This document shows positions 5,579 through 37,657 of a DNA stretch of 64,000 bases, one piece after another. The stretch is from Porphyromonas uenonis DSM 23387 = JCM 13868 (GTDB lineage: Bacteria > Bacteroidota > Bacteroidia > Bacteroidales > Porphyromonadaceae): assembly GCF_000482365.1 (NCBI RefSeq), contig NZ_KI535310.1:8956-72955 (forward strand), written 5' to 3'. A program made the translations under genes and the position numbers. The first letter of the stretch is position 1; each line of letters opens with the position of its first letter. The notes below the pieces were generated by a model. That model searched no databases and was not told where the DNA came from. It saw only the letters and a program-made list of their open reading frames with translations.

Positions 5579-6049
5579 ATGAATGTCCTCAAGGTCATAC
5601 CCGAGACCATCCTCGACGGTGATGGGATACGCTGCTCCATCTACTTAGCAGGCTGCTCCCATCACTGTCCAGGGTGTCACAACCCTGAGAGTCACAGTCC
5701 GCTCGCAGGCACACCCCTGACGGAGGAGTACCTGCAGCAGATCATTGACAGGATCAACGACAATCCCCTCCTCGACGGCATCACGCTGAGTGGAGGGGAT
5801 CCGATGTTCAGTCCCGAGGAGCTACTCACGCTCCTCAAGCGTCTCAAGAGCGACACGGGGCTAGAGATCTGGTGCTACACAGGCTACACGCTCGAGCAGA
5901 TCGAGCAAGACCCCACACGCGCCCCACTGCTAGACTATATAGATGTACTCGTCGATGGACGCTTCGTACAGAGTCTCTACGACCCTCAGCTCTCCTTCAG
6001 AGGCAGCTCCAATCAGCGCATCATAGCCCTGCACAAAGCGCAGCGCTAG
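5579..6049 (+). CDS. nrdG: Anaerobic ribonucleotide reductase activating protein (radical SAM)
   Basis: NrdG cleaves S-adenosylmethionine to install the glycyl radical on NrdD. The 156-residue product has the radical-SAM cluster motif CSHHCPGC (CX3CX2C) at about residues 27-34, and the SAM-binding segment LSGGDPMF near residue 71. Size and order fit the class III system. It lies 24 bp after nrdD, so it is co-transcribed and shares the B12 control. Confidence 0.95.
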   Translation: MNVLKVIPETILDGDGIRCSIYLAGCSHHCPGCHNPESHSPLAGTPLTEEYLQQIIDRINDNPLLDGITLSGGDPMFSPEELLTLLKRLKSDTGLEIWCYTGYTLEQIEQDPTRAPLLDYIDVLVDGRFVQSLYDPQLSFRGSSNQRIIALHKAQR

Positions 6050-6127
6050 CTAAAGTCAAGCCCCACGCTCCTCCTCTGCCACGCTCCGACCAGTGCCAGG
6101 AGATAACAAAGAAGCAGAAAGGAACCT

Positions 6128-6246
6128 CCCCGAGATATTTCCAAAGATTTTCCAGCCTTGGAAAATCAAATTTCCAAGGGAGGAAAAGTAGTTTTCCAAG
6201 GAAGGAAACTTTGCTTTCCAGCGTTGGAAAACGAGCGTTCCCCTAG
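6128..6246. repeat. Palindrome array C (TTTTCC-N6-GGAAAA)
   Basis: Successive palindromes have arms TTTCC/TTTTCC and GGAAA/GGAAAA around 6-nt cores AGCCTT, AAGGGA, AAGGAA and AGCGTT. The layout is that of arrays A and B. The innermost TTCC...GGAA is kept while the outer arm changes from AG to TT. The array lies between nrdG and the rpsP promoter. No coding function is seen in 6050-6380. Confidence 0.75.
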
Positions 6247-6309
6247 AGGAGCGGACGATCAGACGGCAATAAATCTTGGGAAGGTGATGGTGGGGTAAAC
6301 TTTTTTGCG

Positions 6310-6317
6310 TACCTTTG
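6310..6317 (+). promoter_or_regulatory. -7 promoter box for rpsP
   Basis: TACCTTTG matches the Bacteroidota -7 consensus TAnnTTTG and lies 63 nt before the rpsP start. It follows a T-run. No good TTTG box was seen 19-21 nt upstream. Confidence 0.7.
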
Positions 6318-6380
6318 CACGGTTCGTACGAGCCAAGGCTCTTGACGGACATCCAAATCATTCAAATCTCAATATCAACA

Positions 6381-6992
6381 ATGGCAACTAAAATCAGACT
6401 ACAAAGATTCGGTCGTCGTGGCTACCCCTTCTACCGTATCGTCATCGCTGATAGCAGGGCTCCACGGGATGGAAAGTTTATTGAGAGGATAGGTTCTTAT
6501 AATCCGAACACTAATCCTGCTACAATAGATTTGAAGTTTGACCGCGCTCTCTATTGGCTCAAGGTCGGTGCACAGCCTAGTGACACCGTACGTCGCATCC
6601 TCTCACGTGAGGGTGTCCTCCTTAAGAAGCACCTCGATGGTGGTGTCGCCAAGGGTGCATTCACACAGGAGGTCGCAGACCAGCGCTTTGAGGCATGGCA
6701 CACGAACAAGCAGCAGCTCCTCAAGGGAGTCGCTGAGCGTGACCAGCAGAAGGCTCAGGATATGGCTCAGAAGCAGCACGAGGCTGAGGAAGAGCAAAAT
6801 AAGGAGCGTAGCAAGGCACTAGAGGAGAAGAAAGCAGCCATCGAGCGCGAGAAGGCTGAAGCTGAGGCCGCTGCTAAGGCTGAAGCTGAGGCTGCCGAGG
6901 AGGCTAATGCTACCGAGGAAGCACCAGCTGCTGAGGAAGCTCCAGCCACCGAGGAGGCACCAGCTACCGAAGAGGCTCCCGCTGCTGAGTAA
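6381..6992 (+). CDS. rpsP: 30S ribosomal protein S16 with long acidic C-terminal tail
   Basis: S16 is a small-subunit assembly protein. The start ATG at 6381 gives [14 protein letters not shown], the conserved N-terminus. An in-frame upstream ATG at 6315 lies in the promoter and is rejected. The S16 fold covers about residues 1-85. The rest of the 203 residues is a lysine/glutamate/alanine-rich helix followed by a tail of EEAPA(A/T) repeats. Tails are common on Bacteroidota S16, but this one is long and compositionally biased. A terminator follows at 7067-7106. Confidence 0.96.
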
Positions 6993-7066
6993 GCTAACAA
7001 GCTACATAACCTCTACGACATATCAAGTCGTATAGACACGGATACGTATGTATCATGATATCCAGT

Positions 7067-7106
7067 GAGACCCAGACTGCATAACTTTGTGTAGTCTGGG
7101 TTTCTC
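7067..7106 (+). terminator. Terminator after rpsP
   Basis: GAGACCCAGACTGC (7067-7080) pairs with GTAGTCTGGGTTTCTC (7091-7106), followed by a weak T-rich stretch (GTTTG). It fits a rho-independent stop after rpsP. Confidence 0.65.
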
Positions 7107-7154
7107 GTTTGAGCTGACCGATCTATCTATGTGACAGTCACCCTCCCTCTCATC

Positions 7155-8399
7155 ATGACATCTCCACAACTACAATACCACACCACTACCCAGGGACTAC
7201 GTATCGTCTACTACCCTATCCCCAGCCAGGTCACCTATATAGGCTACATGGTACAGACGGGGTCGGCTCACGATCCGCAGCCTTACCATGGACTGGCACA
7301 CTGTACGGAGCACATGCTCTTTAAGGGAACGCATAGACGACACGCTCTGCACTTGGTGAATCGGGTCGAGGCAGTGGGGGCCGACCTCAATGCTTTTACC
7401 ACTAAGGAGGATACGACCCTGCACATATCAATCCCCTCACGCTACGCACTCAGAGCCGTTCATCTGCTCACGGATATCGTGCTCAATAGCTACATACCAG
7501 CCGAAGAGCTGAGCAAGGAGCAGGAGGTGATCATTGAGGAGATTGCTAGCTACCTAGATGCTCCGAGCGAGCGGATATACGATGAGTTTGAGGAGTTGCT
7601 CTTTGGTGGCACTCCGCTTGCGCACAATATCCTAGGCTCTGAGCAGTCGGTCAGACGTATCTCCTCGTCTGTGGTACGACGCTTTATGGATCAGTACTAC
7701 CGTCCCGACAATATGGTGCTGGGCATCTGGGGCGAGATAGACTTTGCCAAGGCAGTGGAGATGATCGAACATCTCTACAGCGAGCCACGAGTAGCTGCGG
7801 GAGATCCATTTAAGGTGCCAAAGGTCAAGCCCACGACCACTCCCGAGCGACTCATCGCCAAGACGCACCACTATCGCACTAACCAGAGCCACTGCATCAT
7901 CGGGACACATGCTCCGAGCCTGCACGACCGTGAGCGCTACGCTATGACGCTCTTCAACAACTTCGTCGGTGGTCCCGCCATCTCCTCACAGCTGAACCTA
8001 CATCTGCGTGAAGAGCTGGGACTAGTCTACAGTGTCGAGGCTAGCTACACGCCCTACCTAAGCGATGGCGTCTGGAACGTTTACCTAGGCACGGGGAGCG
8101 ACACGTTACAGCAAGCTGTTGAGGCGGTGCATAGCATCCTAGACCGCTATGTCACTAGCCCCATGAGTACGGAGCAACTAGCCATCAGCAAGCAGCAGAT
8201 CGTGGGGCAGCTACTCCTCGCCAATGACCAGCACGACAGCGAGCTTATCACCATGCTCAAGAGCTACCTCTACTTCGGCAGGGTCAGTAGCGTCGCTGAG
8301 GTCTCCGAACGCATACAGGCGATCACGCCAGAAGAAGTCACCGATACCGTCAGTCGCTACCTCACGAGAGCGCAGCGACATACGCTCATCTACAAGTAG
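7155..8399 (+). CDS. M16 family zinc peptidase (single-unit)
   Basis: This is a pitrilysin/insulinase-type metalloprotease, related to the processing-peptidase and YmxG group. Of 414 residues, HCTEHMLFKGT carries the inverted zinc motif HXXEH near residue 50. A C-terminal inactive-type M16 half follows. There is no signal peptide, so it probably acts in the cytoplasm. ATG at 7155 is preferred. An in-frame GTG at 7131 would add eight residues not typical of the family. It stands alone between rpsP and plsC. The substrate is unknown. Confidence 0.88.
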   Translation: MTSPQLQYHTTTQGLRIVYYPIPSQVTYIGYMVQTGSAHDPQPYHGLAHCTEHMLFKGTHRRHALHLVNRVEAVGADLNAFTTKEDTTLHISIPSRYALRAVHLLTDIVLNSYIPAEELSKEQEVIIEEIASYLDAPSERIYDEFEELLFGGTPLAHNILGSEQSVRRISSSVVRRFMDQYYRPDNMVLGIWGEIDFAKAVEMIEHLYSEPRVAAGDPFKVPKVKPTTTPERLIAKTHHYRTNQSHCIIGTHAPSLHDRERYAMTLFNNFVGGPAISSQLNLHLREELGLVYSVEASYTPYLSDGVWNVYLGTGSDTLQQAVEAVHSILDRYVTSPMSTEQLAISKQQIVGQLLLANDQHDSELITMLKSYLYFGRVSSVAEVSERIQAITPEEVTDTVSRYLTRAQRHTLIYK

Positions 8400-8411
8400 T
8401 AGAGCTACATC

Positions 8412-8789
8412 GCGAAGGAGGTCAGGGCTGACGCATGATAATCAGCCGTCTAGAAGCTACACATGACGATAGCTAGGAAATAGGCATTTCGTCTATCGCT
8501 ACACAGTGTCTACGGATCCTCTCTGATTACGCCTTCCTCCCGAAGAATTAAATTCCTACCTAGGAATTTGCCAAATAGCTACCTAGAAATTTCCCCAATA
8601 GGTACCTAGGAAATAAAAAATTCTTCGGAGGAATCAAATGAAACTTCGGAAGAATCAAAAAATAAGTCCGAAGAATTTGCCATTTCCTAGGTAGGAAATG
8701 GGCAAATTTCTAGGTACTTATTTGGCAAATTCCTAGGTTGGAAATCAGACGAGCGCATTTTTATCATGCGTCACCCCTGCGAAGGAGGT
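8412..8789. repeat. 11-bp target-site duplication flanking MITE copy 1
   Basis: The 11-mer GCGAAGGAGGT occurs directly at 8412-8422 and 8779-8789, immediately outside the element at 8423-8778. This is the expected scar of a transposition event. Confidence 0.85.
8423..8778 (+). mobile_element. MITE-like non-coding element, copy 1
   Basis: The element begins CAGGGCTGACGCATGATAA and ends TTATCATGCGTCACCCCT, terminal inverted repeats of about 18 bp with one mismatch. It codes for nothing. The inside is dense in small palindromes: CCTAGG-centred units (ACCTAGGAAT) outside and TTCGGAGGAATC/TTCGGAAGAATC units in the middle. It aligns over its length with the reverse complement of 29633-30012. An 11-bp direct repeat flanks it. 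Its right end lies 32 bp before the plsC -7 box. No transposase of this family was found in the window, so it would depend on one supplied elsewhere. Confidence 0.88.
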
Positions 8790-8810
8790 GAATGTCAAGG
8801 GCTTTTTCAC

Positions 8811-8818
8811 TACCTTTG
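8811..8818 (+). promoter_or_regulatory. -7 promoter box for plsC-phosphatase operon
   Basis: TACCTTTG lies 55 nt before the chosen plsC ATG. Any -33 box would fall at the edge of the MITE scar (8779-8789). No TTTG is visible there. Confidence 0.65.
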
Positions 8819-8872
8819 TGAACGCTGAGGCAAGTGCTACAGACTCAGTACGTGAGACAACCCAACCTCTCT

Positions 8873-9622
8873 ATGCTACTACGGATACTATACATTATAT
8901 ATATAGTCTTATTTGCGGCTCCCATTTATGCGGTCCTTACCATCATCTTAGCAGTCATTATGACGGTGGGCTGCTTGCTCGGCTTTGGCAAGTTCTTTAG
9001 CTACTACCCTGGACTCATCTGGTCGTGGCTAGGACTAATCCTATCCCTCTGTCCCGTCACCGTACGAGGGCGCAAGAACTACGACAAGAAGGCCGGACCC
9101 TACGTGGTCATGGCAAATCATCAGGGAGCCTACGACATCTTCCTCCTCTACGGCTTCCTCGGCATCCCCTTCAAGTGGGTGATGAAAGAGTCGCTACGGC
9201 GTGTTCCCTTCGTGGGTAAAGCGTGCGAGGTAGCGGGCTTTATCTTTGTCAATGGGCATAGCATACAGAACATTCGCAACTCGCTAGACGAAGCGAAGCG
9301 TTCGCTCGGTGATGGTTACTCTATCTTTATCTTCCCCGAGGGCAGTCGTACCCGCACAGGGCGTATGCAGCCCTTCAAAAAGGGGGGCTTCGTCATAGCC
9401 GACGAACTAGACATACCGATCATTCCTGTCTCCATCTCGGGCTCCTATGGAGTAATGCGTGCTGGCTCGCTCCTACCCCACTGGCGTCGCCTCTACCTAG
9501 ACATACACCAGCCTATTCATCCTCGTGAGTTCCACACCTCAGATCAGCCGATGCAAGACCTCCGCGAGCAGGTCTACCATACGATACAGCAAGGCATCCA
9601 CGATGGCACAGAGCAACTCTAG
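8873..9622 (+). CDS. plsC: 1-acyl-sn-glycerol-3-phosphate acyltransferase
   Basis: This membrane enzyme adds the second acyl chain to lysophosphatidate in phospholipid synthesis. The 249-residue product has one or two N-terminal membrane segments (about residues 1-55). The acyltransferase motif NHQGAYD (HX4D) lies near residue 82, and the phosphate-binding motif FPEGSRTRTG near 155. ATG 8873 is preferred over GTG 8834, which is only about 15 nt after the -7 box. The stop overlaps the phosphatase start, so the two are translationally coupled. Confidence 0.9.
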   Translation: MLLRILYIIYIVLFAAPIYAVLTIILAVIMTVGCLLGFGKFFSYYPGLIWSWLGLILSLCPVTVRGRKNYDKKAGPYVVMANHQGAYDIFLLYGFLGIPFKWVMKESLRRVPFVGKACEVAGFIFVNGHSIQNIRNSLDEAKRSLGDGYSIFIFPEGSRTRTGRMQPFKKGGFVIADELDIPIIPVSISGSYGVMRAGSLLPHWRRLYLDIHQPIHPREFHTSDQPMQDLREQVYHTIQQGIHDGTEQL

Positions 9623-10112
9623 CACCACGGCTCCTTATCGCATCCTCTTCGTCTGCCTAGGCAATATCTGTCGCTCGCCTCTCGCTGAGGCTATCATGCG
9701 GCAGCTTCTAGCCGAAGACCCAGCGACTTCATCTCGGATTGAGGTGGACTCGGCTGGCATCGGCGGTTGGCACCAAGGCAGTCTACCAGATCCACGAATG
9801 CGTGCTCATGCGGCAAGACGAGGAATTGAGATGACACACCGGGCGAGGCAGGTGACGGATAGAGACTTTGAGACCTTTGACCTAATCGTCGCCATGGACG
9901 ATGGCAACTACGAGGCGCTACGTGAGCTGGCGCCTACGTTAGAGCAGCAGGCGAAGGTCGTGCGCATGGCGGACTACCTCGAGCAGATGCCGTGGGATCA
10001 CATACCCGACCCATACTACGGTGGAGCTTCGGGCTTTGAGCTAGTCCTCGACCTACTCACCGAGGCGTGTACCCGTCTATACCATCGTTGCGCCGCTCAG
10101 AGCGATAAGTAA
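9603..10112 (+). CDS. Low-molecular-weight protein tyrosine phosphatase
   Basis: This cytoplasmic phosphatase belongs to the LMW-PTP family. The P-loop VCLGNICRSP has the CX5R signature, with nucleophile C18 and R24 of 169 residues. The acid loop DPYYGG lies near residue 138. ATG 9603 lies inside the last codons of plsC (20-nt overlap). In other bacteria such enzymes reverse tyrosine kinases of capsule export. No kinase lies nearby, so the target is unknown. Confidence 0.93.
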   Translation: MAQSNSSTTAPYRILFVCLGNICRSPLAEAIMRQLLAEDPATSSRIEVDSAGIGGWHQGSLPDPRMRAHAARRGIEMTHRARQVTDRDFETFDLIVAMDDGNYEALRELAPTLEQQAKVVRMADYLEQMPWDHIPDPYYGGASGFELVLDLLTEACTRLYHRCAAQSDK

Positions 10113-10141
10113 ACAAGTGAGGGGGACAGCACTACTTTTCG

Positions 10142-10149
10142 TACTTTTG
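10142..10149 (+). promoter_or_regulatory. -7 promoter box for the transferase operon
   Basis: TACTTTTG fits TAnnTTTG and lies 46 nt before the ATG at 10196. No -33 box was found. Confidence 0.6.
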
Positions 10150-10195
10150 CGCTGGACTTATTACGATCCTAATTAACGAGCAATCTTTGATTCTG

Positions 10196-11959
10196 ATGTT
10201 TCCTAAGATAAAAAGGCTTCTCTCCATCTGTGGCGGCTATCTCAAGCAACTGTGGGGACGCATGTGTAGCATGCCGACCCTCTTTGTCTTCCTGACACTC
10301 CTGCAGGTGATCATGGGTGGCTTAATGATACTTCACCTTCGCATGGAGATGCCTCTGCTCCTTTGGCTGGGAGGCTATATCGCCGGCACAGCGATACTGA
10401 TGACGCTCCCCGCCATCCTGCCTCAGCGGTGGTGGCGCATCACGTGGACTAGCCTGATCGTACTGCTCTCGGCTGTACTATTTATATATGAGTACTATCT
10501 CCTGACACAGCACGGCACACTCCTGACGCAGACTGTATTGCTACAGTACTATACGCCCCGTGCCGACGAGGTGTGTCGCTCACTACTACTCTGGAGCATA
10601 CCGCTGCGCTCCCTCCTAAAGTCCATCGGGCTACTCTGTGTCATCTCCCTCGCGACTTGGTTAATACGCAAGGGCTGGGGACTACTCTCTCTGATACTAT
10701 TGGTGCTCATATCTGGTGTGCCACACGCCATGCAGATTAGCCCGATAGTGGCCGAAGGTATCTCCAATGATGAGGCTTACACCCTCGCTCACGAGTACAA
10801 TATGATGAGTCGCTACATCGGGACGACGCTAGGAGTCTTTGCCAATCAAAAGCGATACGATGATATGGCGCAGAACTTATGGAAAAACGTTCCGACCAAC
10901 GTTCGTCTCATGCCTCAGCGTCAGCCGCACAATGTGGTGGTCATCATCGGCGAGTCTCTACGTCGCTTAGATATGCACTGCTACGGCTACCCGCTAGAGA
11001 ATACACCACACCTAGACTCGCTCGTACGCTCGGGCTCACTCACGCTATATGACGATGTCGTCTGCCCACAGCCCAACACAATCACCTCACTGCGACGTGT
11101 CCTCACCATACGAGGAGAGGATGAGCAGGCGCCTTGGGATGCCACGACTACGCTACCTATCGCTTTCTCCTCCGCTGGCTACAAAACTTATTGGTGTAGC
11201 AATCAAGAGATGGCTGGAGATTGGATCGAGGAGGTGTCGCTCATAGCCTCTACCGCAGATAGCTCGTACTACACAGAGGGAAGCACCTCTAGTGCCTTGC
11301 ACTGGAAGGCTGGTCGAGTCAAGTACGATGAACTCCTCCTCCCACATCTAACGGACTACCGACAGACCACTTCGCCTAGCGGTCATCTACTTGTGATGAC
11401 CCACCTAATGGGTAATCATGCAGCCTTTGCCGATAGATACCCACACGACCGCTTTGGCCGCTTTACGGCTGAAGATGTGAGGCAATTGGAGCCTCACCTC
11501 AGTGCCGGCGAGGCGCAAAACTCGGCAGAGTATATGAACTCTATCCTCTACAACGACTACATCGTCTCAGAGATTATCAAGTACTACAGCCAAAGCTCCT
11601 CCATTGTCATCTACTTCTCCGACCATGGACTAGCTCGCTATGACAATCCCGAGGCACCTCATCAAGCAGCTCACTCAGTCTCTGAGAGGTCCCTCCAGAT
11701 ACCCTTCATGGTCTATATGTCCGACCAGTTTGCAGCTGAGAATCCAGACGTCCTACTAGCCGTACAGCGCGCTAAGTACAAGCCCTTCATGACGGACCTT
11801 TTCACCTCTTCACTGATGGGACTGATGGGGATCCAGTCAAACTATACCATCCCCCGCTTACAGCTGTGGAGTCTCCAGTACGACGCCACCCGACCTAGAC
11901 GTATCAAGGGCTTTGGCACTGAGGTCACCTTCACCCCTAAGCATCCAGATCAGCTATGA
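10196..11959 (+). CDS. Phosphoethanolamine transferase-like inner-membrane protein (sulfatase superfamily)
   Basis: The 587-residue protein has about five N-terminal membrane helices (to about residue 175) and a periplasmic alkaline-phosphatase-fold domain, the plan of EptA/CptA enzymes that decorate lipid A or LPS core with phosphoethanolamine. Catalytic landmarks are present: IIGESLRR with the nucleophile position in GES (about 252-254), then YGYPLENTP. HLMGNH lies near 403-408 and the metal site FSDHG near 475-477. ATG 10196 is chosen; TTG 10187 is also in frame. Its stop overlaps the next gene in ATGA. The substrate is inferred from family. Confidence 0.85.
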   Translation: MFPKIKRLLSICGGYLKQLWGRMCSMPTLFVFLTLLQVIMGGLMILHLRMEMPLLLWLGGYIAGTAILMTLPAILPQRWWRITWTSLIVLLSAVLFIYEYYLLTQHGTLLTQTVLLQYYTPRADEVCRSLLLWSIPLRSLLKSIGLLCVISLATWLIRKGWGLLSLILLVLISGVPHAMQISPIVAEGISNDEAYTLAHEYNMMSRYIGTTLGVFANQKRYDDMAQNLWKNVPTNVRLMPQRQPHNVVVIIGESLRRLDMHCYGYPLENTPHLDSLVRSGSLTLYDDVVCPQPNTITSLRRVLTIRGEDEQAPWDATTTLPIAFSSAGYKTYWCSNQEMAGDWIEEVSLIASTADSSYYTEGSTSSALHWKAGRVKYDELLLPHLTDYRQTTSPSGHLLVMTHLMGNHAAFADRYPHDRFGRFTAEDVRQLEPHLSAGEAQNSAEYMNSILYNDYIVSEIIKYYSQSSSIVIYFSDHGLARYDNPEAPHQAAHSVSERSLQIPFMVYMSDQFAAENPDVLLAVQRAKYKPFMTDLFTSSLMGLMGIQSNYTIPRLQLWSLQYDATRPRRIKGFGTEVTFTPKHPDQL

Positions 11960-13623
11960 AAAAGGCTCTCTTCAACTACCTCCAGGGGGTCAAAGCTAGG
12001 GCTCCTCAGCTAGTATGGCTACTGATTGCGATGCTAGCGATCTTGACGCTCAATAATCTCGTCCTCAGAGATCTGCTCTCAAAGAGTGCTCCTTATCTAT
12101 CTAAGGAGAATATTCCCCTACTATGGGACACCCTCTGGATGGCTACCCTACTCTACGTCATCCCCACCCTGATACCCCATCGCATCACACGCAAGGTAGT
12201 CCTCATCACTGAGCTGGTACTGGTCAGTGCCGTACACATTATGGATCTCTACCTCGTCAGTACCTACCAGATGCCCTACTGTGACGCTATCGCCACACCT
12301 ATCTTTGCGACCAATCCTGGAGAGGCACACGGCTTCTTCAAGTCGCTACGACTAGATATGCCCTTCATGCTACGAGAGTGGGGCAAGCTACTACTGGCCA
12401 TCTTTCTACCGCTCGGAGGCTCTTGGTTGATCAGTCGTGCCAAGGATGCTAAAAAGGGGCTTTCTCCCGAACGTATCACACGCTTCCAGAAATATAGCTC
12501 CACAATCCTCTTCATAGTGGTCCTCGTCGGGGCACACATACTCGGTATCAGCTACCTACGTAAGACTCGTATAGTGGCTAGCGAAGGGGGTATCCAGTAC
12601 AATATCCACGCTCCTATAGCTCGCCTCTATCTGAGCAGTCGTATGTTATGTCAAAACGCTAAGCACTGCGCTCTCAACTACAGACCTCGGCAAGCGACAC
12701 CTCAAGAGGTAACCGTAGACTCGCTCCTACCACCGCACAATGTTGTGCTGGTCGTCGCCGAAGATATCTACCCGCACCTGATGCACTGTTACAATCCTAT
12801 CGTTAGCGACAACACCCCCGCCATAGACTCCCTCCAGCAGACTGGCTCTCTCATCAAGCTCGATAGCATCTATAGTGCCTCTGACAATGCGGCTCTCGCA
12901 GCTGCCTGGACGCTCTCCCTATGTCCTAAGGATAGTCCTGACAGTTGGGATACCTACCCCTCTATCTATAGTATCTTTCGAGTAGCAGGCTACGACACCT
13001 ATTGGCTGGACAACACTCCACGCATAGCTCACGGACTAGATGTCTACCCCCCGCTAGCAGCCGACTGCGATGACCTCTTCTTTACCAATCTCCGTGCAGA
13101 CGATCAGGACTGGACAGACCAAATCCCCTACGACGATGCTGTTCTCAACTACCTCAAGCCGCTAAAAGACCAGTCCCGCCTCACCACCATCCATCTCTTA
13201 GGAGGTCGGAGTAACATTTGGTGGCGCATCCCCGAGGAGTTCTACAGGTACAACCGTCTATCTGCAAACACCGACATAAGCCTGTCTGGCGATGCACTAG
13301 ACCACCTAGCTCAGTACTACAATGTCGTCTACTACCAGGATGACCTCCTCAAGCGAATCGTAACGTACTACCAGGACACCCCCACGATACTTATCTTCTG
13401 TAGCCCCGTAGGCGTATACGGTGAGTGGCACCCCTACTCCAGCGATCAGGTGACTCCCGACACTAGAGCGCAGGTGCCGATGCTACTCTACCTCTCCCCA
13501 GCTATGCAACGCATATCGCCCACCCTACGAGATCAGCTGCTACAACTCAATACAGAGCGACACAACCTCAGCGACCTACCTCAGATACTGATGCGTCTCT
13601 CTGGCATCAAGGTCTCTTTGTAA
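11956..13623 (+). CDS. Catalytically degenerate paralogue of the upstream transferase (pseudoenzyme)
   Basis: This 555-residue membrane protein is collinear with its neighbour: N-terminal helices, then the same fold (HNVVLVVAED...HCYN...NTPAIDSL; AGYDTYWLDN). At each active-site position the residues are lost. GES becomes AED (268-270), HLMGNH becomes HLLGGRS (413-419), and SDHG becomes SPVG (483-486). The frame is intact, so this is not a decayed gene. The 4-nt ATGA overlap couples it to the active paralogue, which suggests a partner or regulator role. That role is inferred. Confidence 0.82.
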   Translation: MKKALFNYLQGVKARAPQLVWLLIAMLAILTLNNLVLRDLLSKSAPYLSKENIPLLWDTLWMATLLYVIPTLIPHRITRKVVLITELVLVSAVHIMDLYLVSTYQMPYCDAIATPIFATNPGEAHGFFKSLRLDMPFMLREWGKLLLAIFLPLGGSWLISRAKDAKKGLSPERITRFQKYSSTILFIVVLVGAHILGISYLRKTRIVASEGGIQYNIHAPIARLYLSSRMLCQNAKHCALNYRPRQATPQEVTVDSLLPPHNVVLVVAEDIYPHLMHCYNPIVSDNTPAIDSLQQTGSLIKLDSIYSASDNAALAAAWTLSLCPKDSPDSWDTYPSIYSIFRVAGYDTYWLDNTPRIAHGLDVYPPLAADCDDLFFTNLRADDQDWTDQIPYDDAVLNYLKPLKDQSRLTTIHLLGGRSNIWWRIPEEFYRYNRLSANTDISLSGDALDHLAQYYNVVYYQDDLLKRIVTYYQDTPTILIFCSPVGVYGEWHPYSSDQVTPDTRAQVPMLLYLSPAMQRISPTLRDQLLQLNTERHNLSDLPQILMRLSGIKVSL

Positions 13624-13645
13624 ACCTACTCCCCACACACAAAGG

Positions 13646-13690
13646 TTGCCACACCTATGGGACTTCGAGCCTCATTCGTGTGGCAATTGT
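13646..13690 (+). terminator. Terminator after the transferase operon
   Basis: TTGCCACAC (13646-13654) pairs with GTGTGGCAA (13678-13686), followed by TTGTTTT. It ends 23 nt after the operon stop. Confidence 0.65.
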
Positions 13691-13726
13691 TTTCTCCCGA
13701 GGAATTTTCCACAATAGCTACCGAGG

Positions 13727-13766
13727 AACTGAGACGAGCTCTTTTTTTTTATCATGCGTCAGCCCT
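13727..13766 (+). mobile_element. Solo right end of the MITE-like family
   Basis: GAGACGAGCTC, a T-run, then TTATCATGCGTCAGCCCT matches the right end of the full copies (8740-8778). A GAGGAATTTTCC-like palindrome remnant precedes it. No left end or 11-bp duplication was found, so it is a truncated relic or solo end. It lies 55 bp before the -7 box at 13822. Confidence 0.65.
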
Positions 13767-13821
13767 AGGCTACTCGAAGTCCAGGGGGACGCTCTCTATT
13801 GCTTTGCTTCAAAACATTTTA

Positions 13822-13829
13822 TATCTTTG
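13822..13829 (+). promoter_or_regulatory. -7 promoter box for the secreted endopeptidase
   Basis: TATCTTTG lies about 214 nt before the ATG at 14044, leaving a long untranslated leader. No gene or known riboswitch was recognised in that leader. Confidence 0.6.
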
Positions 13830-14043
13830 CCTGAGGTATGTAACCAGACCGAAAGCGAACACGATAGAACCGAAACATACTATCACACCAATAGCTACAA
13901 GGTCAGGTGCGCTCGTGCCCTCACCACCGAGGACGTGGTCACTAGGGTGCACGGAGAGTGCATCTGACGAGGATTCACTGGCTCTGTACCTAAAGAGAGA
14001 TCTATCTACTACTTAAGCAACCATACAATACGAACGAAGACTG

Positions 14044-29621: not shown

Positions 29622-30023
29622 AAGCTTTCGGTCAGGGTTGACGCATGATGAAAATGAGCTCGTTTCATTTCCTACCTAGGAATTGCCAAAATTCCTACCT
29701 AGGAAATGGCCAAATTCTTCGGACTTATTTTTTGATTCCTCCGAAGTTTCATTTGATTCCTCCGAAGTTTCATTTGATTCCTCCGAAGTATTTTTGATTT
29801 CCTAGGTAGGAATTGGGCAAATTCCTAGGTACCTATTTGGCAAATTCCTAGGTACCTATTTGGCAAATTCCTAGGTAGGAATTCCATTCTTCGGAAGGAG
29901 TGCGTAATCAGAGAGGTTCCGTAGCCACACTCTGTAGCGATAATCGAAAAGCCTGTTTCCTAGTTATCGTCACGTGCAGCTTCTAGACGGCTGGTTATAA
30001 TACGTCAGCCCTAAGCTTTCGGT
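29622..30023. repeat. 11-bp target-site duplication flanking MITE copy 2
   Basis: The 11-mer AAGCTTTCGGT occurs directly at 29622-29632 and 30013-30023, immediately outside the element. Its sequence differs from the scar of copy 1, as expected for independent insertions. Confidence 0.87.
29633..30012 (-). mobile_element. MITE-like non-coding element, copy 2 (inverted)
   Basis: The reverse complement aligns along its length with copy 1 (8423-8778). It has the same ends (left here CAGGGTTGACGCATGATG, right ATACGTCAGCCCT). It also shares the segment CAGCCGTCTAGAAGCT, the CTCTGATTACGC segment and the CCTAGG and TTCGGAGGAATC palindrome units. It is about 25 bp longer because it has extra internal repeat units: CCTAGG units at 23-bp spacing and TTCGGAGGAATCAAATGAAAC repeated at 21-bp spacing (last word split: TTCGGAGGAATC, AAATGAAAC). 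An 11-bp direct repeat flanks it. Its end lies 42 bp before the typA -7 box. Confidence 0.88.
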
Positions 30024-30054: not shown

Positions 30055-30062
30055 TACCTTTG
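30055..30062 (+). promoter_or_regulatory. -7 promoter box for typA
   Basis: TACCTTTG lies 35 nt before the typA ATG and 43 nt after the end of MITE copy 2. Confidence 0.7.
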
Positions 30063-30097: not shown

Positions 30098-31900
30098 ATG
30101 CAAGAAATACGAAATATCGCCATCATCGCTCACGTCGACCACGGTAAGACGACCCTTGTCGACAAAATGCTCCTCGCAGCCAAGCTCTTTAGAGAGGACA
30201 AAGCTGCCGAGGTCGACACCTTTCTAGACAATAACGACCTAGAGCGAGAGCGAGGTATCACGATCGTTTCTAAGAATGTCAGCATCACCTACAAGGGGGT
30301 CAAGATCAACGTCATAGACACCCCAGGACACGCCGACTTCGGCGGTGAGGTGGAGCGCGTGCTCAACATGGCCGACGGGTGCCTGCTACTCGTAGACGCC
30401 TTCGAGGGACCGATGCCTCAGACCCGCTTCGTACTGCAGAAAGCCCTCGCCATAGGACTTAAGCCGATCGTCGTCATCAACAAGGTGGATAAGCCCAACT
30501 GCCGCCCCATGGAGGTGCAGGATATGGTCTTCGACCTGATGGCTTCGCTAGAGGCGACCGATGATCAGCTTGACTTCGTCACTCTCTTCGGTAGTGCCAA
30601 GCAGGGCTGGATGAGCCGTGACGTGGAGAAGCCTACGGAAGACATCACGCCCCTACTTGATGCGATCATCTCTGAGATCCCCGCACCACAACAGCTGGAC
30701 GGACCTCTGCAGATGCTCATCACCTCGCTGGACTACAGCTCCTACGTGGGACGTATCGCCGTGGGGCGCGTGCATCGTGGCACCATACACAACGGCGACA
30801 CCGTGCTCCTCTGCCACAAAGAGCGTGAGCCACATCGTGAGAAGGTCAAGGAGCTCTACACTTTTGAGGGTATTGGCAAGGCAAAAGCGGACTCTGTCTC
30901 CAGTGGCGACATCTGCGCCATCGTGGGCTTTGACCACTTTGAGATTGGCGACACGATCGCTGACCCTGAGCATGCCGAGGCGCTAGACACGATCTCGGTC
31001 GATGAGCCGACGATGTCGATGCTCTTTACGATCAATAACTCTCCCTTCTACGGACGAGAAGGTAAGTTTGTCACCTCTCGCCATATCCATGAGCGTCTGA
31101 TGCGTGAGCTGGATAAGAACCTCGCTCTGCGTGTCGAGACGACTGACCAGGCGGACTCGTGGAACGTCTTCGGCCGTGGCGTCCTGCACCTCTCCGTGCT
31201 GATCGAGACGATGCGCCGTGAGGGTTACGAGCTACAGGTGGGTCAGCCTCAGGTCATTATCAAGGAGATCGATGGCGTACGGTGCGAGCCTATCGAAGAA
31301 CTGACGATCAATCTCCCCGACGAGACCAGTAGCCGTATCATTGATATGGTCATACAGCGCAAGGGCGAGATGACCGCCATGGAGAGCAAGAACGGTCGTA
31401 CGCACCTCGTCTTCACAATACCTTCGCGTGGCATCATCGGACTCAACAACAGCGTCTTGACCGCTTCGGCTGGTGAAGCTGTCATAGCACACCGCTTCCT
31501 GGAGTTTGGACCTTGGCGCGGAGATATCGAGCGTCGCAACAATGGTAGCATCATAGCGGGTGAGAGCGGTACCGCTTTTGCCTATGCGCTGAATAACCTC
31601 CAGAGCCGCGGACGCTTCTTCATCGCTCCTCAAGAGGAGGTTTACGCTGGTCAGGTGATCGGCGAGCATACGAAGGACAACGACCTGACGGTCAACGTCT
31701 GCAAGAGCAAGAAGCTCACCAACATGCGTGCCGCCGGTAGTGATGACAAGGTAGCTCTCGCGCCTCCCGTCGTCTTCAGCCTAGAGGATGCGCTGGAGTA
31801 TATCAAGGCAGACGAGTATGTGGAGGTCACGCCTAAGTCTATGCGTCTGCGCAAGATACTCCTCAACGAGCTAGACCGCAAGCGCGCCAACAAAGCATAA
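30098..31900 (+). CDS. typA: Translational GTPase TypA/BipA
   Basis: A ribosome-binding GTPase of the EF-G type involved in 50S assembly and stress or cold adaptation. The 600-residue length fits. G1 is AHVDHGKTT (about 10-18), with the effector ERERGITI following. G3 is DTPGHADF near 74 and G4 is NKVD near 128. EF-G-like domains III and V and the TypA-specific C-terminal domain (ending [17 protein letters not shown]) follow. Confidence 0.97.
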
Positions 31901-37468: not shown

Positions 37469-37568
37469 CTTTGAAAGCGCTTCTGCTGAGTTCATCCTTG
37501 AGAAATCGAAGTTTTCTATGGAGGGAAAATCAAAAACAGCTCCCGAGCTATTTGGATTTCCTCGGAAG

Positions 37569-37606
37569 AAACTGAGACAAATTCATTTTTTATCATGTGT
37601 CAGCTC
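37569..37606 (+). mobile_element. Solo, decayed right end of the MITE-like family
   Basis: AACTGAGACAAATTCA then TTTTTTATCATGTGTCAGCTCC matches the right end of the full copies with several changes. Upstream (37500-37568) are GGAAAATC and CCTCGGAAGAAAC palindrome remnants. No left end or duplication was found. It lies 43 bp before the -7 box at 37650. Confidence 0.55.
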
Positions 37607-37649
37607 CGCTCTGCAAATCTAGGACAATCGATGGTTTGTGAAAAGTGAG

Positions 37650-37657
37650 TATCTTTG
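37650..37657 (+). promoter_or_regulatory. -7 promoter box for the large M16 peptidase
   Basis: TATCTTTG lies 152 nt before the ATG at 37810, leaving a leader with no recognised element. Confidence 0.6.

Follow-up and report, generated by a model that had tools for sequence, protein, structure and literature searches.

MITEs are common in bacteria, and the genus Porphyromonas already offers several examples. The BrickBuilt MITE of P. gingivalis (PMC4596501) is a multicopy, intergenic element with an interior of ~23-nt repeats, a terminal repeat of the IS5 type (GAGACCTTTGCA), the repeat unit AGAYCATARTATCCTCTCRTRTG, and short, variable target duplications (CT, GAAA, AAAAA as printed). The same work (Table 2) lists the IS5-type elements MITEPgRS/MITE464 and ISPg4 of P. 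gingivalis, which are characterized by the repeat GAGACTGTTGCA. The ISAs1-family insertion sequences, defined by a transposase of the NF033564 type (PF13808 plus PF01609), are autonomous elements, and the term ISAs1 does not occur in the text of the MITE review PMC10969869. Outside bacteria, the yeast retrotransposons Ty1, Ty3 and Tf1, with unrelated machinery, integrate at a set place near promoters and thereby leave genes intact. Here we describe dozens of copies of a small element of Porphyromonas that shares its ends with an ISAs1-type insertion sequence and whose copies recur at one fixed distance upstream of promoter boxes, which is unusual for bacterial mobile DNA.

The element was examined in a window of 64,000 nucleotides from Porphyromonas uenonis DSM 23387 = JCM 13868 (assembly GCF_000482365.1, contig NZ_KI535310.1, denoted C6 below). 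A preliminary description, made from the sequence alone, had recognized at 8412-8789 a non-coding, MITE-like unit of 356 bp with terminal inverted repeats, an 11-bp target-site duplication and a palindromic interior. This observation is confirmed, with small corrections of the limits. The inverted repeats are CAGGGCTGACGCATGATAA at 8423-8441 (plus strand) and TTATCATGCGTCACCCCTG at 8761-8779 (minus strand), 19 bp each and 95% complementary; the right repeat had been cut one base short, so that the element is 357 bp long and occupies 8423-8779 (plus strand). The direct repeat GCGAAGGAGGT is indeed present at 8412-8422 and 8779-8789, but on the right its first G is the last base of the element, whereas on the left the eleventh base is a coincidence. 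The true duplication is the 10-mer CGAAGGAGGT (8413-8422 and 8780-8789), as confirmed by the 10-bp duplications at other copies.

The interior consists of a leader module (8442-8548, plus strand) and an array of ~23-nt palindromic bricks (8549-8750, plus strand, limits approximate), with CCTAGG-type bricks outside and three TTCGGA-type core bricks inside. The arms of this array, 8553-8629 and 8667-8743, are 86% complementary, and the DNA folds far better than shuffled sequences (z = -11.45). If the long hairpin were kept for its own sake, the two arms of one copy would be expected to match each other better than the arms of different copies. They do not: in 55 arrays the mean score was 56.6 within an element and 59.3 between elements, and 99.87% of permutations reached the observed value. 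Thus, a maintained hairpin is not supported, we see no evidence for a function of the array, and for now we take it to be a passenger minisatellite. A search against Rfam returned no match above the gathering score in window positions 5900-14000. Within the element, no terminator-like sites were found, and the only promoter-like sites were two overlapping ones predicted by E. coli rules, which do not fit this phylum.

The likeness to BrickBuilt "in plan" but not in sequence, as proposed in the preliminary description, is supported. The BrickBuilt unit has no match in the window at 3 mismatches, and its terminal repeat has 11 matches in the window at 2 mismatches (5.4 expected), none of them inside 8412-8789. 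The GAGACTGTTGCA repeat of ISPg4/MITEPgRS does occur in this genome, but as the end of a separate small IS5-type element nested in or next to several copies of the present family (loci L013, L015, L036, L044, L202, L204 and L205; L numbers denote the loci extracted from the genomes studied).

The element belongs to a large family, hereafter family 1. A search of the same genome (G000; 2.25 Mb, 29 contigs) with the 378-bp query listed, besides the window copy, at least 21 places spanning 340 bp or more at 77-89% identity; only 40 of 145 candidates were scored in this search, and the copy at 29633 is missing from it. Within two mismatches, the terminal repeat occurs 103 times in G000, 133 times in G025, 50 in G022, 37 in G001 and 34 in G024 (all four are other genomes of the genus), and 0-12 times in the other 21 genomes of the genus examined. 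The loci fetched from G000 contain 55 distinct brick arrays, 51 with a 53-nt core and 4 with a 74-nt core, some of which have lost their ends and one of which is of mixed type. The longer core, with one additional 21-nt brick (L023, L024, L027, L048), indicates minisatellite-like variation.

Within the window, the terminal repeat matches six places at up to 3 mismatches, against 0.17 expected. Two of these bound a second complete copy (29633-30013, minus strand, 381 bp, leader at the right, four core bricks as judged by eye), not mentioned in the preliminary description of this finding, with the perfect 10-bp duplication AGCTTTCGGT at 29623-29632 and 30014-30023. Of the others, one belongs to a truncated relative at 13683-13767 (left limit approximate), with the right-hand repeat at 13749-13767 and a few bricks, and another to a decayed remnant at 37500-37608 (left limit approximate), with the repeat at 37590-37608 (3 mismatches). 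A further array of short palindromes (TTTCC...GGAAA, ~22-nt spacing), without ISAs1 ends, lies between two genes at 6135-6240; the family 1 copy in L002 is inserted inside a similar array.

The outer bricks differ between lineages, whereas the core bricks are alike. The outer bricks are of the CCTAGG type in G000 (195 CCTAGG and 0 CCACGTGG in 45 arrays; loci L001-L052) and of the CCACGTGG type in the arrays of relatives (0 CCTAGG and 80 CCACGTGG in 24 arrays; L054-L061, L114-L149), although two G000 loci examined later do contain CCACGTGG (L208, and L209, which is mixed). Hence, a CCTAGG variant seems to have spread in this lineage. The presence of the core bricks in four relatives first suggested a free-standing repeat. 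However, in two of the three G001 stretches looked at (L213, L214) the array lies between ISAs1-type ends, whereas many other arrays of relatives show no recognizable end within 500 bp, so that for these a free-standing status remains possible. In related species, ISAs1-type mini elements of about 100 bp (L213, L214, L056, L057) are often found beside a brick array and have a leader like that of the MITE families (AGCTACACAT). A second ISAs1-MITE family in G000 (384-385 bp; L038 2571-2955, L021 1113-1496, L210 827-1210) carries about seven 22-nt tandem repeats and a leader related to that of family 1 (0 of 500 shuffles reached the score), the resemblance to the window copy covering the first ~50 bp of the leader. 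In L021, the element of this second family is nested in a family 1 copy with its own 10-bp duplication.

Could these be static palindromic repeats or a minisatellite rather than a mobile element? The brick interior and the loss of one or both ends in many copies might suggest so, but the duplications and empty sites make this extremely unlikely. In 36 pairings of left and right ends (some being alternative pairings of one locus), the adjoining 10-mers agree at 10/10 in 8, at 9/10 in 5, at 8/10 in 4 and at 7/10 in 3, the other 16 agreeing at 5 or fewer positions. Of 1260 pairings between different entries, 6 reach 7/10 or more, and the two at 10/10 are evidently alternative pairings of L020 and L021 that share a left flank. 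The site orthologous to that of the window copy lacks the element in G022 and G025 and contains the 10-mer once, with one substitution. Of 13 further insertion sites tested in four relatives, five gave a match across the whole joined site in at least one relative: L020 and L050 with the exact single 10-mer in G024, L009 with 9/10 in G024, L035 in all four relatives (9/10 in three, 8/10 in G001), and L015 in all four, diverged, with 1-4 gapped positions. The other eight gave partial or single-flank matches, or none (L005), and are uninformative. Together with the nesting in L021, the unrelated duplications and precise empty sites speak against a static repeat.

As for the partner, the interpretation offered in the preliminary description was only partly supported: the MITE assignment holds, but mobilization by an IS4-family element with 11-bp duplications does not find support. 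Duplications of 10-12 bp do occur in IS4 relatives; however, the autonomous elements found with this terminal repeat, in searches aimed at the PF13808 transposase rather than at IS4, are of the ISAs1 family, and the duplications are 10 bp, so that the IS4 reading appears very improbable on present evidence. A PF13808 profile search of G000 gave one hit, a fragment at the end of contig C4 preceded by the same terminal repeat, and 16 of 26 genomes of the genus have such hits. In G025, 1318-bp elements carry perfect 19-bp repeats (CAGGGCTGACGCATTATAA at both ends), with 10-bp duplications (aaggtggact; gattcttaga) at two of the three copies looked at. Some G000 MITE copies match this repeat letter for letter, and the ends of the window MITE are identical to it except at one variable base (G/T in the left repeat) and, on the right, for C/G at one position. 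One element of another genome of the genus (G010) and one of two elements of a further one (G006), with near-identical repeats, also show 10-bp duplications. The G025 transposase belongs to ISAs1 (NF033564, E = 1.6e-85), with PF13808 and PF01609 domains. The MITE, in contrast, is short and has no transposase, and its leader and tail show no kinship with the sub-terminal parts of the IS beyond chance (fractions of shuffles reaching the score: 0.48 and 0.99 for the leader, 0.09 and 0.34 for the tail).

In G000, the first 361 bases (L198) and the last 375 bases (L053) of the 228-kb contig C4 are the right and left halves of an ISAs1 IS flanked by the same 10-mer ATCCCCCCGA, as if contig end and start join through one IS copy, that is, a circle or a misassembly. 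A third fragment lies on contig C14. All three fragments have open frames, but no complete copy is assembled, so that activity in this strain is unproven. Since the fragments found lie on C4 and C14 and not on C6, the statement that the window contains no transposase fits the data as far as ISAs1 is concerned.

The unexpected result concerns the sites of insertion. Upon listing the outward flanks, we noticed that the Bacteroidetes -7 promoter box TAnnTTTG (the consensus, with TTTG near -33, is given in PMC9330008 and PMC7366714) recurred at one offset. In 29 elements, 14 of 28 outward boxes began at offset 41 from the element end, against 3 inward boxes. Among all 85 distinct ends in the G000 loci fetched, the box starts at 41 in 19, at 42 in 5, at 43 in 1 and at 30-32 in 6, with 0 at 38-40 and 0 at 44-49; inward boxes number 2 in 85 ends. 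Random offsets in the same flanks (20000 trials for each genome) gave a mean of 0.53 and a maximum of 5 (0.37 and 5 with 84 ends and a wider range). Because some ends in different species may be orthologous, each genome was treated on its own. The peak is separately present in G025 (6 of 86 at 41, 4 at 42, 3 at 40; null mean 0.28, maximum 5), where it is modest, in G001 (6 of 39; 0.17, maximum 3) and in G022 (8 of 41; 0.21, maximum 4), and perhaps in G024 (1 of 5). Pooled over 198 ends, IS ends included, the counts at offsets 36-47 are 0, 2, 1, 1, 3, 35, 7, 1, 0, 0, 0, 2. The fixed spacing is strong in the genome of the window and is replicated more modestly in others. With a looser box (5 of 6 letters), G025 and G001 also show 11 and 9 ends, respectively, at offset 31, but 10 of 11 and 9 of 9 of these share one repeated flank (AATAATTTA) of larger composite elements and are therefore not counted; the exact-box counts are not affected. 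Many ISAs1-type ends in these two genomes (L217, L220, L239, L214, L338 and others) abut one repeated flank (..CAATAATTTAGA..CTACA), so these genomes carry larger composite elements with internal ends.

Within the window, the second complete copy has the box TACCTTTG exactly 41 nt beyond its end (30055-30062, plus strand), before a 600-aa ORF at 30098 that, by eye, looks like a GTPase of the TypA/BipA kind; the remnant ending at 37608 has the box TATCTTTG exactly 41 nt beyond its end (37650-37657), and the truncated relative ending at 13767 has an outward box at 54 nt. The window copy itself has TACCTTTG at 31 nt, not 41 (8811-8818, plus strand), before the acyltransferase gene (8834-9622), and this box is also present in two relatives that lack the element. 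Of the 14 insertions with duplications at 9/10 or better (13 from the pairings above plus the copy at 29633), six have a box at 41 (L015, L021, L038, L048, L050 and 29633), three at 30-31 (L001, which is the window copy, L020 and L212), one at 37 (L026), and four have no exact box at either end (L002, L005, L009, L013). Overall, 61 of the 85 ends have no exact box at 41 or 42, although about half of all ends should point away from any promoter. Which end faces the promoter does not seem to matter (leader 9 of 31, tail 11 of 32, unclassified 4 of 22). Two copies without a matching duplication have a box at 41 on both sides (L006, L014), as expected if two dispersed copies recombined, which is an inference. 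The flanks differ from locus to locus, and the box is present at the empty sites of L001, L015, L020 and L035 in the relatives aligned, so it is not part of the element; at L050 in G024, however, its letters are not conserved.

The ISAs1 IS loci behave alike. Of 40 ends listed from loci with a PF13808 transposase in other genomes of the genus, not every one of which holds a complete IS, a box lies at 41 for L062, L067, L068, L069, L070, L079, L080, L086 and L088, at 40 for L083 and L084, and at 39 for L078; these come from eight genomes and have differing terminal repeats, whereas the remaining ends have boxes elsewhere or none. The IS ends of G000 itself have the box at 42 (L053) and, with a box one letter off, at 41 (L246). 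In a sample of 295 genomes of the class Bacteroidia, 11 had a match to the transposase, and eight loci outside Porphyromonas had recognizable ends: L252 has a 9-bp duplication and a box at 40 (9 + 31), L258 (L264 is the same site) a box at 41, L251 a box at 39 on both sides, without a matching duplication, and L261 a box one letter off at 42, whereas L247, L248, L250 and L254 have none at 39-42. Where the duplication is known, the constant is about 31 bp from its near edge to the box. In contrast, the IS5-type ends (GAGACTGTTGCA, up to 1 mismatch) in the same loci, a convenience control since these loci were chosen around ISAs1 ends, comprise 114 ends with 19 boxes scattered from 5 to 107 and none at 33-44. 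In gammaproteobacteria, 12 ISAs1 copies with perfect 10-bp duplications (of 26 loci examined for ends, 14 gave none) provided a small sample of 24 flanks with no clear -10-type box at a fixed offset, the highest count, TAnnnT in 4 of 24 at offset 47, being reached by 16% of shuffles. The trait may be confined to Bacteroidota, or hidden in gammaproteobacteria by looser promoters.

Could such a pattern result from untargeted insertion, followed by selection against insertions that hit genes or promoters? Twenty-six of 29 insertion points checked lie outside ORFs of 100 aa or more, so purging of harmful insertions probably acts. Nevertheless, survival should give a broad range beyond a minimum distance, not 19 hits at one offset with none at 38-40 and 44-49, and the IS5-type ends in the same loci show no peak. 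We consider this explanation very unlikely.

Taken together, these data support, with high confidence, a scenario in which the element is a non-autonomous transposon moved in trans by an ISAs1-family DDE transposase that would recognize the shared 19-bp terminal repeat and make a 10-bp staggered cut. In these Bacteroidota, the machinery would select targets at a fixed position relative to sigma-ABfr promoters, with the near edge of the 10-bp target 31 bp (less often about 21 bp, one helical turn closer) upstream of the -7 box, so that the element would land just behind the promoter and leave the -33 and -7 elements whole, which would allow many copies to accumulate. The assignment to MITEs and to ISAs1 is near certain. 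The copies, the terminal repeats, the duplications, the empty sites, the existence of an IS with the same ends, the fixed spacing and its absence for another element type are established by the sequence comparisons; by contrast, mobilization in trans by this transposase, the attribution of the spacing to target choice rather than survival, and the reading of either promoter-bound RNA polymerase or the promoter DNA are inferred, no transposition having been observed and no transcription start having been mapped here.

Regarding what is being read, one possibility is that the transposase or a host DNA-binding protein contacts the -7 box and its T-tract directly, without participation of RNA polymerase. 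The 35 aligned targets show at most 0.21 bit at any position in the duplicated 10 bp and up to offset 24, followed by a T-rich stretch at 33-38 and the box. However, the box lies 31 bp from the nearer cut, which we infer to be a long reach for direct contact, and the T-tract plus box may simply be what promoters here look like, so that the sequence data do not separate the two views and this one can be held only tentatively. The alternative, about equally tentative, is that the ISAs1-family transposases of Bacteroidota use promoter-bound RNA polymerase (sigma-ABfr holoenzyme) as a landing beacon, the transpososome docking at the upstream edge of the polymerase and cutting 31 bp (or about 21 bp) upstream of the -7 box. 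This would be a bacterial counterpart of the promoter-tethered integration of yeast retrotransposons, and it would make the ends of such MITEs a genome-written map of promoters.

To our knowledge, a bacterial transposon family whose copies sit at one base-exact distance upstream of promoters has not been described, and literature searches on ISAs1 and MITEs, on ISAs1 in Porphyromonas, on ISAs1 target sites and promoters, and on target choice involving RNA polymerase showed, among titles and abstract beginnings of open-access papers, no ISAs1 MITE in Porphyromonas and no fixed promoter distance, so that the novelty is provisional. What is added here is an ISAs1-type case next to the IS5-type brick-bearing MITEs of Porphyromonas. 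If the spacing reflects targeting, it would explain how a 2.25-Mb genome tolerates over a hundred element ends, give a testable link between transposition and transcription, offer a way to place DNA next to promoters, and let MITE ends predict promoters in a phylum with its own promoter type.
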